From: Bacteroidaceae bacterium
GTDB taxonomy: Bacteria; Bacteroidota; Bacteroidia; Bacteroidales; Bacteroidaceae
DNA length: 64,000 bases
Direction of reading: 5' to 3'
Assembly (NCBI GenBank): GCA_017522785.1
Contig: JAFWYF010000015.1
Span: 62,001-126,000 of the forward strand
Shown: in pieces, positions 58,790 to 63,512 of the stretch
How the letters are laid out: the number at the start of each line of letters is the position of its first letter
Position numbering within the stretch: position 1 is the first letter of the stretch
Made by a program: the position numbers and the translations under genes
The notes under the pieces: generated by a model
Databases searched by the model: none
What the model was told of the DNA's origin: nothing
What the model saw: the letters and a program-made list of their open reading frames with translations, nothing else

Positions 58790-59389
58790 TCAATTAAAAT
58801 CGGACATATCTACCAACTTGTTCATTATGGCATAAACAGTGAGGCCCGGAATACTGTTAATGCCCAATTTACGTGATATATTACGTCGATGCGATATTAC
58901 AGTGTATATAGATATGTTAAACTCGTCGGCAATCTCTTTGTTGGTCTTTCCTTTTGCCACTGCAACAAGAATATCACGCTCACGGGTCGATAACTCGTTT
59001 AGCTCATTCTTTGGGTTCTGTTGCATCTCCTCGACTGCACTATGCAGTTTTTGTATTATTCTCGCAGTGTTGTCATAAATGTTTATGCAACCGTCATACT
59101 GCCGCATAACGTTCTCTTCATAGCCTGCATTTGTTAATGCAACAATGGAAATGTTCTCTCCGTTGGAACAAAAGTATGAACGTATATCGAAACGTTCGTT
59201 GTAGTTTATCACTGTAGGGTTTATAACTATTATGTCGGGTTTCGACTGCATAGTGTTGTAGTATCCCGGGGTTGAAATAGTATTCATTATCTCAAACCCA
59301 TGGCTCTTGCCAACAATCTCTTTGAAACCGGTGGCGATAATCTCCGACGGCTCAATAAGCAATATCTTTAGTTTTTCTTGCCTATTCAT
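58790..59389 (-). CDS. LuxR/NarL-type regulator with a non-phosphorylatable receiver
   Basis: 199 residues. Residues about 7-120 have the size and strand pattern of a receiver (ILLIEPSEIIATGF, PDIIVINPTV, ISIVALTNAG), but the acidic pair is E13-P14 and the phospho-acceptor position is N57, so normal phosphorylation is not possible. The C-terminal HTH is intact: LSTRERDILVAVAKGKTNKE, then IADEFNISIYTVISHRRNIS and RKLGINS. It overlaps the RIC-like gene by 8 bases, which implies joint expression. I infer it responds to something other than a histidine kinase. Confidence 0.87.
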   Translation of the reverse strand: MNRQEKLKILLIEPSEIIATGFKEIVGKSHGFEIMNTISTPGYYNTMQSKPDIIVINPTVINYNERFDIRSYFCSNGENISIVALTNAGYEENVMRQYDGCINIYDNTARIIQKLHSAVEEMQQNPKNELNELSTRERDILVAVAKGKTNKEIADEFNISIYTVISHRRNISRKLGINSIPGLTVYAIMNKLVDMSDFN

Positions 59390-60086
59390 AGTCCTTCTCT
59401 AATTTTTCTACAAGTGGAACAAGTAGTTTGTTTTCTATCAGTGAGTGTTTGCGTAAATCGTTCTCTACTGCATAGATATCTTTTAATATTTCGAAACGTA
59501 TGTTCGATGAATACTCTTCGGGAATATACTTAATAATTATATTTTTAAGGTCATTTAGTTTTTCTCCAATATTGCTATGATTCTTTTCGAACTTTACAAT
59601 ACTGAATTTATTATCGGAAAAACCATCCCTCTCTAAAAGGGTGTCTATGTATGGAAATACTGTGTTTTCTTCGAACATGAAATGGTTGGTTACTTCGTTG
59701 TCGTAGTCGTCATAGAATTTATCTATCAGATGACGGTTTACATCGTCGAGCTCCTTTACCAATATATGTATCTTATTGTGAATTTCCGGAAAACATATCT
59801 CCTTATAATATTTATGCGACCTGCGTAGGTATCCTGTAATATCTGCTATGTCGCTCTTATGCAATAACTCAATCTGGGGTACGTAGTCGTGAAATGAATA
59901 TATATTGCATATTATAAGGAACAGGTCTGTCGATATTTCGTAACGTGAACAAATCTCGCTCACACTTGCTTCGCCAAAGCCCAATTTTATATTCAGACGA
60001 TGTAGTATCGACAACAGATTGTTATCGGTTGCTATAAGGTCTGCAAGTTTCATTCTCTTAGAGTATAATGTTTCGTTGTTGCTCAT
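59382..60086 (-). CDS. RIC/ScdA-like hemerythrin-domain protein
   Basis: 234 residues. Residues about 12-60 resemble the small N-terminal domain of ScdA/RIC proteins but without its CC pair. Residues about 85-230 form a hemerythrin-like four-helix bundle: HKYYKEICFPEIHNKI, HFMFEENTVFPYI (HxxxE), FEKNHSNIGEKL and LRKHSLIENKLLVPLV (HxxxE), enough ligands for a di-iron site. RIC proteins repair iron centres after nitric oxide or oxidative damage. It lies 36 bases after feoAB and overlaps the LuxR-type gene. Confidence 0.85.
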   Translation of the reverse strand: MSNNETLYSKRMKLADLIATDNNLLSILHRLNIKLGFGEASVSEICSRYEISTDLFLIICNIYSFHDYVPQIELLHKSDIADITGYLRRSHKYYKEICFPEIHNKIHILVKELDDVNRHLIDKFYDDYDNEVTNHFMFEENTVFPYIDTLLERDGFSDNKFSIVKFEKNHSNIGEKLNDLKNIIIKYIPEEYSSNIRFEILKDIYAVENDLRKHSLIENKLLVPLVEKLEKDYE

Positions 60087-60122: not shown

Positions 60123-62513
60123 TTAAAATAGTCCTCCAATAATGTATACGATATATCCGGCTAACCATGCTACGGCTGTATTGTATATAACAGAGAATAC
60201 AGCCCATCGTTTACTGCCTGTTTCTTCGGCTATTGCCGCTATCGTGGCTATGCATGGGAAAAATAGTAATATAAATACCAAGAATGCCGCTGCTGAACGT
60301 GGCGTAAAATCGCGTGATGCAATAATCGCATCGGGCAATCCTTCTTCGCCTTCGCTACTATACAGCACTCCAAGCGTACTTACAACTAACTCTTTTGCCG
60401 GTATGCTTGTTATTATTCCAATAGTTGCACGCCAATTCAATCCCATTGGTTGCATAACAGGCGCTATTGCCTTGCCTATCATTCCTATGTATGAGTGTTC
60501 ATAATTATCATCTACACTCATTTCTGTAGTAACCTCATTATCCAAAGCGTTTGATTCGGGACGAGGATAATAACTTAGGAACCATATAATTATTGTTGCG
60601 GCCAATATCACTGTTCCAATCTTACGCAGGTATTGTTCACACTTCTCCCACATGTGGCGTAGTGTTGCACTAAGTGTAGGCATACGGTAGGGTGGAAGCT
60701 CCATAACAAACGGTGTCTCATCCGATTGAAAACGTGTTTTGCGTAGCAAACGTGCTGTTATAGCTGCTACAAAAATTCCAAGTGTATATAAACCAATAAG
60801 CACTATTGGCGCATGTGATGGAAAGAATGTTCCTGCAAAGAGTATCAACACCGGCAGACGTGCACTACACGACATGAATGGTGTGATGAGTATTGTGATA
60901 ATTCTGCTACTACGGCTCTCTATGGTGCGTGTTGCCATTATCGCCGGTACATTACAGCCAAATCCCATTAGCATTGGTATGAACGATTTGCCATGTAATC
61001 CCATTTTATGCATTATACGGTCCATGATAAATGCTGCGCGCGACATGTACCCCGAATCCTCCATAAGAGATATGAACAGATATAAAATAAGAATCTGTGG
61101 AAGGAATACAGCAACACTACCCACACCATTGATTATTCCATTTACAAGCAGGTCTTGTACTGCTCCTTTGGGCATTACATCGGTTATCCAATCGCCCAAA
61201 AAACCAAATGCGGCATCAATCCAATCTTGTGGGTATGCACCCAACTGAAAAACTGCTGTGAACATTAGCCACATGAGCAACATAAACAGAGGAAATCCCA
61301 ACCATTTGTTTGCCACAAGACGGTCAATGCGACGTGTTTGTCGTTGGGTGTCTCTGTTCCCGGCTGTATATGTCTCTTGTAATGCTCCATTAATAAAACC
61401 ATATTTTGCATCACTTATAGCTGTTTCAACATCAACTCCTTGTTGATGTTGAACATTCTTTGCGGCTTTTTCTGCCTTAGTCTGCCATTGCTCAATGTTC
61501 TTGCAATATTGCAACAGGTTTAGCGCCTCTTTGTCCTGTTCCAACAATTTTAGAGCCCAATAGCGTACCGGAAATTGCTGTGGCAAATCGTCGGCGGAGT
61601 GTAATTCCTGCGACAGTGGTGCCAATTCGGTCTCTATAATGTTTCCATAGTTGATGTGTATGTGTCTTATGGTTTTATCACGTCCTTCGAATAGGTCTAT
61701 AACTGTGTCCAATAATTTATCCAGTCCTTCTCCAACCTTTGCTATTGTTGGAATCATTGGTATACCCATCATGGCACCAAGATGTTCGTAATTTAGTTTT
61801 GCTCCACTTGCAACCAATTCGTCGTACATGTTCAATGCAACAACTGTTCGTTGGTTCATGTCGATGAGCTCTGTGGTAAGATATAAATTACGCTCAAGGT
61901 TCGATGCTACAACTGCATTTATAATAATGTCGGGTATATTCTCGAAGAGATGACTTCGTACAAAACGTTCTTCGGGAGAATATGCCGAAATGGAGTAGGT
62001 TCCCGGAAGGTCGGTCAAATTAATTCTATAACCCTTGTAATTGAGACTGCCTGTTTTTGCGTCTACTGTTACACCGCTGTAATTTCCTACATGCTCACTA
62101 CTGCCCGACAAAGCATTGAAAAGCGATGTCTTGCCACTGTTGGGGTTTCCTATAAGTGCAACATTAATAATGTTGTTACGTTTCGCTTTTATAGGACGAT
62201 AGGCACAATTTTGTCCTATACCATTACAACTATCACACACCGATGAACATCCAAAAGAGTTTATAGGGGTAAGTTCTTTCTTTGCCTCCTCTTCGGGAAG
62301 AACCTCTATCATGGATGCTTCGTTTCGTCGTAGTGATACATCGTACCCCATTACATGATATTTAACGGGGTCGTGCATGGGGGAGTCAAGCACCGACTTT
62401 ACTTTCTCGCCGCGTATGAACCCCATTTCCATTATGCGTTTACGAAAACCACCATGCCCCGACAGACGGACAATTACGGCGGTTTCGCCATTCTTTAATT
62501 CCGATAATTTCAT
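60123..62513 (-). CDS. feoB: Fused FeoA-FeoB ferrous iron transporter
   Basis: 796 residues. Residues 1-72 are a FeoA (SH3-like) domain. A linker carries C89, C93, C96 and C103. The G domain starts at 118: P-loop GNPNSGKTS (122-130), NYSGVTVD (switch I), DLPGTYS (G3), NMYDE (G4). The membrane part begins near 400 with the Feo gates FIPMLMGFGCNVPAIMATR and SIPAKELVVSTLGVLYS. It imports Fe(II) across the inner membrane. It is the first gene of a four-gene operon (feoAB, RIC-like, LuxR-type, acetyltransferase) with a good promoter. Confidence 0.96.
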   Translation of the reverse strand: MKLSELKNGETAVIVRLSGHGGFRKRIMEMGFIRGEKVKSVLDSPMHDPVKYHVMGYDVSLRRNEASMIEVLPEEEAKKELTPINSFGCSSVCDSCNGIGQNCAYRPIKAKRNNIINVALIGNPNSGKTSLFNALSGSSEHVGNYSGVTVDAKTGSLNYKGYRINLTDLPGTYSISAYSPEERFVRSHLFENIPDIIINAVVASNLERNLYLTTELIDMNQRTVVALNMYDELVASGAKLNYEHLGAMMGIPMIPTIAKVGEGLDKLLDTVIDLFEGRDKTIRHIHINYGNIIETELAPLSQELHSADDLPQQFPVRYWALKLLEQDKEALNLLQYCKNIEQWQTKAEKAAKNVQHQQGVDVETAISDAKYGFINGALQETYTAGNRDTQRQTRRIDRLVANKWLGFPLFMLLMWLMFTAVFQLGAYPQDWIDAAFGFLGDWITDVMPKGAVQDLLVNGIINGVGSVAVFLPQILILYLFISLMEDSGYMSRAAFIMDRIMHKMGLHGKSFIPMLMGFGCNVPAIMATRTIESRSSRIITILITPFMSCSARLPVLILFAGTFFPSHAPIVLIGLYTLGIFVAAITARLLRKTRFQSDETPFVMELPPYRMPTLSATLRHMWEKCEQYLRKIGTVILAATIIIWFLSYYPRPESNALDNEVTTEMSVDDNYEHSYIGMIGKAIAPVMQPMGLNWRATIGIITSIPAKELVVSTLGVLYSSEGEEGLPDAIIASRDFTPRSAAAFLVFILLFFPCIATIAAIAEETGSKRWAVFSVIYNTAVAWLAGYIVYIIGGLF

Positions 62514-62572
62514 TTTGCATTACAATTATAATCAGCATGTTCTTTTTCTCAAAGAAAACAGTAATGCTAATT

Positions 62573-62754
62573 TTGCTATGCAAAATTAGTAATCTCATGT
62601 TTAACATACAATAATAATTATATGTAAAAAAAGAGAAAATATTAGTCATATATTGCTATAGAAAACTATTTTATGTCATGTTTACTAACATGTTGCTATA
62701 AAATGATATTAAAATCACAAATAGAGTGATTGTGGGCTTCTTAATGTTGCTATA
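62573..62754. repeat. Recurring TTGCTATA motif between the feoAB and small-RNA promoters
   Basis: TTGCTATA occurs at 62653-62660, 62693-62700 and 62747-62754, and TTGCTATG at 62573-62580. The third copy overlaps the plus-strand -7 element. A 16-bp inverted repeat CATGTT-TACT-AACATG lies at 62677-62692. Candidate regulator sites; no protein can be assigned. Confidence 0.4.
62581..62612 (-). promoter_or_regulatory. Promoter of the feoAB operon
   Basis: On the minus strand ATTG (62609-62612), exactly 20 bases, TAATTTTG (62581-62588). The implied leader is about 60 bases. Confidence 0.7.
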
Positions 62755-62760
62755 ATTTTG
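62729..62760 (+). promoter_or_regulatory. Promoter of a probable small RNA
   Basis: ATTG (62729-62732), exactly 20 bases, TAATTTTG (62753-62760). No open reading frame follows; the next signal is a terminator at 62927-62970. Confidence 0.65.
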
Positions 62761-62766
62761 CAACGT

Positions 62767-62970
62767 GAATAGAAACGATTTGTGATGTTGAGTCTTGTAA
62801 GAGAGTGTTCGATGTTTCTATTTATGTGAATAGACCACAAATAAATTAAATCTGATTATCTCAACGTATTATCCCATTGGCTGTCGTGAGACATCCCGAG
62901 ATAATCGAAAATGTTATCTTAAGCCAAAAAAATATTTCCTGCAAACAACCATTTGCAGGAAATATTTTTT
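62767..62970 (+). ncRNA. Probable stand-alone structured small RNA (~205 nt)
   Basis: The segment runs from a good promoter to a strong terminator and has no reading frame. Three further helices can form: AATAGAAAC/GTTTCTATT (62768-62776 with 62814-62822); GATTATCTC/GAGATAATC (62854-62862 with 62898-62906), the latter enclosing TGTC-GTGA-GACA (62882-62893); and an alternative GTTGAG/CTCAAC pairing that would compete with the second. Length and isolation resemble 6S RNA, but I cannot confirm the 6S bulge. The neighbouring gene is convergent, so it is not a leader. It is divergent from feoAB. Confidence 0.55.
62927..62970. terminator. Bidirectional terminator of the small RNA and the His-rich gene
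   Basis: 19-bp stem (62927-62945 with 62952-62970), 6-base loop, core ATTTCCTGCAAA, with A-run on the left and T-run on the right, so it gives U-tracts in both directions. Confidence 0.92.
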
Positions 62971-63011: not shown

Positions 63012-63467
63012 TTAATTGGAAAGCATCGATATTATTCCGGCAACTCCCAATACAATTGCAGCTGCTTCTACCACATCGTTATCGCAGTGGTGGTGAACTA
63101 CCGGGTAATGCACCGATGAATAAACCGGGACATTGCAGTTGTGGCTTATTACTACCGGTCTTGGTGCCGGTTTGTGTATCACAACAGGACGTGGTGCTAC
63201 TACAGGGTGGTGCTTGTGTTTATGTGAAACTATAGGGCGTGGCTTTGAATGGTTAATGTGATTCTTGCCAATATGCTTCTTGTGCTCACCTTTTTTCTTT
63301 GTGTTGAAATTCTTACTACCTTTGTTTACCTCCTTCTTGTTATTGTTTCTCTTCTTGTCGATTTGCACCTTGCGCTCTCCCTTTTCCATTCTTCTGTTCT
63401 GTGCAATACTCTGTGCAGGCATAAGCAATGCGCCTATCATCACTGCAATAATCATCATCTTTTTCAT
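63012..63467 (-). CDS. His-rich secreted small protein
   Basis: 151 residues from the ATG at 63467 (MKKMMIIAVMIGALLMPA); another ATG three codons upstream is possible. After the signal peptide the chain is very basic (KKRNNNKKEVNKGSKNFNTK) and then rich in His and Pro (HKHKHHPVVAPRPVVIHKPA, HYPVVHHHCDND), ending in a hydrophobic helix (AAAIVLGVAGIISML). It could bind metal in the periplasm or envelope; being next to feoAB makes that attractive, but there is no family match I can name. Confidence 0.72.
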   Translation of the reverse strand: MKKMMIIAVMIGALLMPAQSIAQNRRMEKGERKVQIDKKRNNNKKEVNKGSKNFNTKKKGEHKKHIGKNHINHSKPRPIVSHKHKHHPVVAPRPVVIHKPAPRPVVISHNCNVPVYSSVHYPVVHHHCDNDVVEAAAIVLGVAGIISMLSN

Positions 63468-63512
63468 AGCTCTCATTTTTTGAAGTTAAACATCTGTTGT
63501 CTGTTTCTGCAA

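Follow-up and report, generated by a model that had tools for sequence, protein, structure and literature searches.

The stretch of DNA analyzed here (the window, 64,000 nucleotides) is part of a 2.1-Mb genome, and the relatives in its genus are metagenome assemblies from the ruminant gut that are titled Bacteroidaceae or Bacteroidales bacterium. Beside feoAB, a gene for uptake of ferrous iron, lies a region of about 204 non-coding bases, with a promoter at one end and a strong terminator at the other. The genes and elements of this locus, in which P1, P2 and P3 are helices of the RNA, are as follows.

60123-62513, minus strand: feoAB, 796 aa, with FeoA and FeoB domains within a single frame
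62691-62698, plus strand: promoter element TGTTGCTA (TRTTGYTA as consensus), which precedes the -7 box by about 60-70 bases and recurs near this place in 28 aligned promoters
62713-62731, no strand assigned: palindrome AATCAC-N7-GTGATT, a putative regulator site, the right half of which overlaps the -33 box
62730-62732, plus strand: -33 box TTG, separated from the -7 box by 20 bases; ATTG almost unchanged across 28 copies
62753-62760, plus strand: -7 box TAATTTTG (Bacteroidetes TAnnTTTG); TA and TTTG invariant in 28 homologues
62767-62970, plus strand: predicted small RNA gene, its start placed from the promoter and its end from the terminator, with homologues
62767-62776, plus strand: P1 5' arm GAATAGAAAC, in the same place but of different sequence in most homologues
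62814-62823, plus strand: P1 3' arm GTTTCTATTT, pairing probability 0.74
62826-62848, plus strand: first part of the conserved single-stranded motif, GTGAATAGACCACAAATAAATTA, counterpart of the short-form GAATAAACCnAACAAATGAATT
62854-62862, plus strand: P2 5' arm GATTATCTC; 8 of 9 P2 pairs changed on both sides
62866-62874, plus strand: second part of the motif, GTATTATCC, a putative seed, nearly invariant in both forms of the RNA
62879-62896, plus strand: P3 hairpin GGCTGTC-GTGA-GACATCC; 2 of 6 pairs changed on both sides, GNRA tetraloop kept
62898-62906, plus strand: P2 3' arm GAGATAATC, with the same P2 covariation
62912-62925, plus strand: conserved tail TGTTATCTTAAGCC, kept in most long forms
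62927-62970, no strand assigned: strong, nearly symmetrical intrinsic terminator, seen in the fold and in homologues

The sequence-only reading had proposed a discrete small RNA gene of about 205 nt, divergent from feoAB. Such a gene is strongly supported by the promoter register, the covarying helices and the terminators in homologues. No convincing reading frame is present on the plus strand of the RNA region in the list of open reading frames, as had been claimed; the largest plus-strand frame nearby has 36 aa and starts with TTG. We also rejected ATGAATTGTATTATCC as a peptide, since the ATG inside the motif is not kept, being lost in homologues (AAATGAATTG / AAATAAATTG). The locus thus has the features generally expected of an intergenic sRNA, namely its own promoter, an intrinsic terminator and no conserved reading frame, together with conserved structure with compensatory changes.

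The promoter with 20-base spacing was likewise confirmed. The upstream regions of 28 homologous copies align almost without gaps, with the promoter in a fixed register, and the TT of the TRTTGYTA element reaches about 1 bit per column. A composite promoter pattern searched across the genome matched this promoter alone, and the full palindrome, at 0 or 1 mismatch, also occurs in only one place in the whole genome. The TGATTG half of the palindrome is kept in nearly all homologues and the left half in about half of them; a degenerate version of AATCAC-N7-GTGATTG is present in some copies. Since the palindrome is absent from the upstream regions of feoAB loci without the RNA, it goes with the RNA gene and not with feoAB. 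No Fur box was recognised at the RNA promoter. Another near-perfect palindrome, CTAATTTTGC-TAT-GCAAAATTAG (62567-62589), overlaps the -7 box of feoAB; variants are found at other loci of the genus (e.g. L008, L012, L014), and it is a candidate feoAB operator.

Plain DNA similarity gave one clear relative, elsewhere in the genus, so pattern and covariance searches were needed. The core GTATTATCC ... GGCTGTCGYGAGACATCC of this relative was turned into a search pattern and then into covariance models, and a short form of the RNA, which keeps GAATAAACCnAACAAATGAATTGTATTATCC, was found by reading the upstream regions of feoAB. Counting either form, homologues are present at 26 of the 37 other feoAB loci of the genus, and 11 loci have no recognisable copy. 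Most linked copies (23 of 26) are divergent from feoAB and adjoin it; the RNA is on the feoAB strand in L034 and L040, directly upstream, and in L022, beyond two His-rich genes. Three further copies (L002, L090, L134) have no feoAB within the flanking bases examined. A single RNA copy is found in most genomes here. In L034 (2213-2290) and L040 (2212-2290) the RNA gene and its promoter share the strand of feoAB, which suggests inversion of the unit. Several strict-pattern and weak model matches (L074, L076-L079, L091-L098, L101-L103, L117, L128, L130, L133, L136) were discarded because they came without promoter and terminator context.

No homologue outside the genus was found at E < 0.001. An order-wide search (R2) gave nothing convincing, and in a family-wide search (R3) of 301 genomes every match outside the genus had an E of 0.0025 or worse per genome. 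In Rfam, no family reached its gathering score in the window, 6S included, or in three short-form loci; loose-threshold matches, such as those of miRNA models on the terminator, are chance only. From these comparisons the RNA family appears to be new and confined to one uncultured gut Bacteroidales genus.

Two forms of the RNA occur in the genus, a short form of 98-131 nt and a long form of about 190-225 nt, to which the window copy belongs. The short form consists of an optional 5' hairpin, a single-stranded motif of about 31 nt (GAATAAACCnAACAAATGAATTGTATTATCC), a hairpin and the terminator. In the long form, recognised in ten copies (the window, L002, L007, L009, L010, L011, L016, L034, L040 and L090), helix P2 and the GNRA hairpin P3 frame GTATTATCC. 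One long form only, L011, has an extra perfect hairpin, GCGAGT-TATGACG-ACTCGC, in the P2 linker upstream of GTATTATCC.

The window RNA folds at -50.8 kcal/mol, compared with -32.9 +/- 3.6 for shuffles (z -5.0), much of this coming from the terminator; the inner 102 nt by themselves give a z of -1.3. Energy alone would therefore not prove internal structure; the evidence for it is comparative, in that P2 and P3 covary strongly and P1 is supported. In the alignment of the ten long forms 95.5% of cells are paired, and 10 of the 15 pairs of P2 and P3 changed two-sidedly, with 29 such cells against 8.8 in shuffles, counts that lean towards the structure because the alignment was fitted to it. The P2/P3 covariation score is 0.516, against 0.164 +/- 0.031 for shuffles and at most 0.138 for slid controls, which for the same reason are helpful but not independent. 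The alignment (A5) was made from hand-aligned sequences because MAFFT could not align P2; it was padded with N, some loop inserts were dropped, and it was used for the model and the pair counts only.

For P1, taken by itself, the best helix joining the first bases to those just ahead of the motif was compared with shuffles; 14 of 20 copies reach about p = 0.05 or lower, with sequences that differ between species. As these sequences are related, the combined p of 9e-13 exaggerates the significance. In the remaining copies few or no bases precede the motif from which a P1 could form. In the ensemble of the complete window transcript, pairing probabilities are 0.74 for P1, 0.85 for P2 and 0.94 for P3. 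The several helices of the sequence-only reading are thus borne out by P2/P3 covariation and by the recurring P1, but its switchable fold is not. Both of the mutually exclusive pairings exist in the sequence; only GATTATCTC/GAGATAATC is a conserved helix, and GTTGAG/CTCAAC reaches 0.07 compared with 0.85.

The motif is conserved while its flanks vary; its roughly 31 nt run uninterrupted in the short form, and P2 divides them in the window. GTATTATCC is unpaired with a probability of 0.88 in the window ensemble and is mostly open elsewhere, with one exception, the long form L010, in which the motif is predicted to be paired. TTTAAGCC recurs within the terminator loop of many short forms. Many short forms, L012, L014, L017, L020 and L026 among them, have UUUAAGCC or something close to it in or near the terminator loop, and it matches the single-stranded tail TTAAGCC of long forms. 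The terminator at 62927-62970 is real: of 28 homologues, 26 scored for a terminator hairpin after the core, and in the other two one can be made out by eye. Because it is nearly symmetrical, it may also serve the convergent gene at 63012-63476.

That gene (minus strand) encodes a small, secreted-looking protein with many His, Lys and Arg residues and no Pfam match; it is possibly metal-binding. A His-rich gene adjoins the RNA gene in several loci, with two copies in L022, and small His-rich secreted-looking proteins and kelch proteins are frequent on this side of the RNA. On the other side, feoAB is followed by a hemerythrin-domain gene and then by a LuxR-type regulator at every genus locus with enough sequence. 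The best NCBIfam match of the hemerythrin-domain protein is the Fe-S repair protein RIC, at an E of 1.8e-12, below the curated cut-off. This pair occupies 58790-60086 (minus strand) in the window, with the LuxR-type gene at 58790-59389, and is found in L005-L034, L039, L041, L042 and L062; in Tannerella (L036, L037) the same pair is divergent from feoAB. Judged from sequence, feoAB with the RIC-like and LuxR-type genes appears to form a conserved iron and Fe-S-repair cluster.

An iron- or redox-linked role had been proposed for the RNA. Its place beside feoAB is kept in most of the genus, so that such a link is reasonable; three copies, however, have no nearby feoAB, and no pairing with feoAB or its neighbours was seen. 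Going by location, an iron or nitrosative-stress role is plausible from the neighbourhood. In Proteobacteria, the iron sRNAs of RyhB type are small RNA genes linked to iron genes, and a functional analogy to the RNA here is possible; we know of no relation in sequence or structure. It may even be, although we hold this rather doubtful, that feoAB, the Fe-S-repair-like hemerythrin, the LuxR-type regulator and the sRNA form a circuit that senses iron or nitric oxide, with the RNA as its output, which would retune iron-protein synthesis in trans as a Bacteroidota counterpart of RyhB.

Taken together, the comparative evidence indicates that the RNA beside feoAB is a genuine sRNA gene, not catalogued before, that has a promoter and terminator of its own and conserved folds, and it is probably a regulator. 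Could it instead be the 3' UTR of a read-through transcript, or intergenic sequence that has no function and forms hairpins by chance? Strong and nearly symmetrical, the terminator might be that of the convergent gene at 63012-63476 alone, and much of the energy excess is due to it, but the conserved dedicated promoter, the covarying helices and the conserved motif, as well as the lack of a co-oriented gene directly upstream in the window, make this explanation hardly credible. Scarcely more probable is a diverged 6S RNA, which would putatively bind RNA polymerase. A 6S RNA has been reported in B. thetaiotaomicron (PMC7366714), the long form is a stand-alone structured RNA similar in length to 6S RNA (RF00013) and 6S-Flavo (RF01685), it is present in single copy, and no 6S is recognised in the genus. 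Even at the looser Rfam threshold, however, no 6S family appears in the window; RF01685 has weak matches in two other genera only, and RF00013 matches nothing in the 41 Bacteroidales genomes searched (the window's and 40 relatives), a weak test since this model seems blind to Bacteroidales 6S here. The topology also differs. 6S RNA is a rod with a central bubble and a closing stem between its 5' and 3' ends, whereas here P1 is a local 5' hairpin, followed by an exposed motif, and P2 and P3 form a separate 3' domain; the short forms of 98-131 nt keep no rod, and neither the recurrent 5' hairpin nor the linear motif is a 6S feature. The 6S-like RNA of the sequence-only reading is therefore not supported.

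A cis element of feoAB, that is, a local regulatory region, leader or antisense RNA for the adjacent gene only, would account for the recurring place of the RNA next to feoAB at 26 of 37 other loci. A leader would be expected on the same strand, upstream and read through, but the RNA is divergent in the window and in 23 of the 26 other linked loci. The RNA and feoAB do not overlap, promoter and terminator are the RNA's own, and its orientation varies (L034, L040, L022). It is also present in places with no feoAB close by (L002, L090) and does not pair with the feoAB start, so that a cis element is improbable. The main rival is a protein-binding RNA, a sponge or scaffold in which the UUAUC repeats, GNRA hairpin and exposed motif would titrate or position a protein with no mRNA pairing. 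The two conserved single-stranded motifs, the conserved GNRA hairpin and the lineage-specific helices fit it as well as they fit pairing, and the search for targets agrees with it. Complementarity of the RNA to the start regions of feoAB, RIC, LuxR and the His-rich gene gave no consistent signal. Exact complements of GTATTATCC show no enrichment in the genome, at 18 compared with 42 for the reversed control, and none of them lies at a clear translation start; one exact GGATAATAC site is found 65 bases ahead of a DAHP-synthase-like frame (L213). What the short form retains, however, lacking P2, P3 and often P1, is chiefly the linear motif, and this is at least as compatible with a pairing seed; we regard protein binding as possible but not likely.

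A stand-alone sRNA of a new, genus-restricted family, acting in trans through an exposed conserved seed, is the best explanation of the exposed linear motif, the independence from feoAB orientation and the dedicated promoter and terminator, and we favor it with some confidence. That the RNA retains its promoter both in the other orientation to feoAB (L034, L040) and with no feoAB nearby (L002, L090) speaks for action in trans. According to this proposal, RNA polymerase would start at about 62765-62767 from the conserved promoter, the conserved palindromic DNA of which would be used as a dedicated regulator site. The transcript of about 204 nt would fold, as the comparison of homologues shows, into the 5' hairpin P1, the exposed motif and the P2/P3 domain, which would present GTATTATCC unpaired, and would stop at the intrinsic terminator. 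The exposed motif of about 31 nt may act as a seed that pairs with mRNAs in trans, possibly with a protein helper, and the RNA may answer to iron or to redox or nitrosative conditions, as its location suggests.

Among known sRNAs, FopS/GibS of Bacteroides thetaiotaomicron are similar in being intergenic RNAs of the same phylum with a Bacteroidetes promoter and an intrinsic terminator, and their conserved single-stranded 5' seed resembles the short form here (PMC11697453, PMC7366714). A 5' single-stranded seed with an intrinsic terminator is found in the short forms without P1 (L012-L015, L062, L131), whereas the motif of the window RNA sits behind P1. FopS is a family of 14 copies (PMC11697453), in contrast to one copy in most genomes here; it lacks the P1, P2 and GNRA hairpin of the long form, and the 26 published bases of its R1' consensus (PMC11697453) are not found in the window at up to 3 mismatches. 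SnoA, a nitrite-responsive RNA locus of B. thetaiotaomicron, also lies beside a stress- or iron-related gene and has a conserved segment predicted to be unpaired and a conserved hairpin (PMC13370916, preprint). SnoA is opposite and complementary to the hcp promoter (PMC13370916, preprint), while the RNA here neither overlaps nor complements feoAB; SnoA works differently.

Few sRNAs of Bacteroidota have been characterised so far, most of them in one species. The new family would add one with comparative structural support, in which the promoter has a palindromic site of its own, the exposed motif is located precisely and the link to ferrous-iron uptake recurs. Since the promoter is defined, the motif exposed and the feoAB link recurrent, its seed, regulator and targets are directly testable. 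Moreover, the occurrence of forms of about 110 nt and about 200 nt within one genus suggests rapid structural remodelling around a fixed motif.
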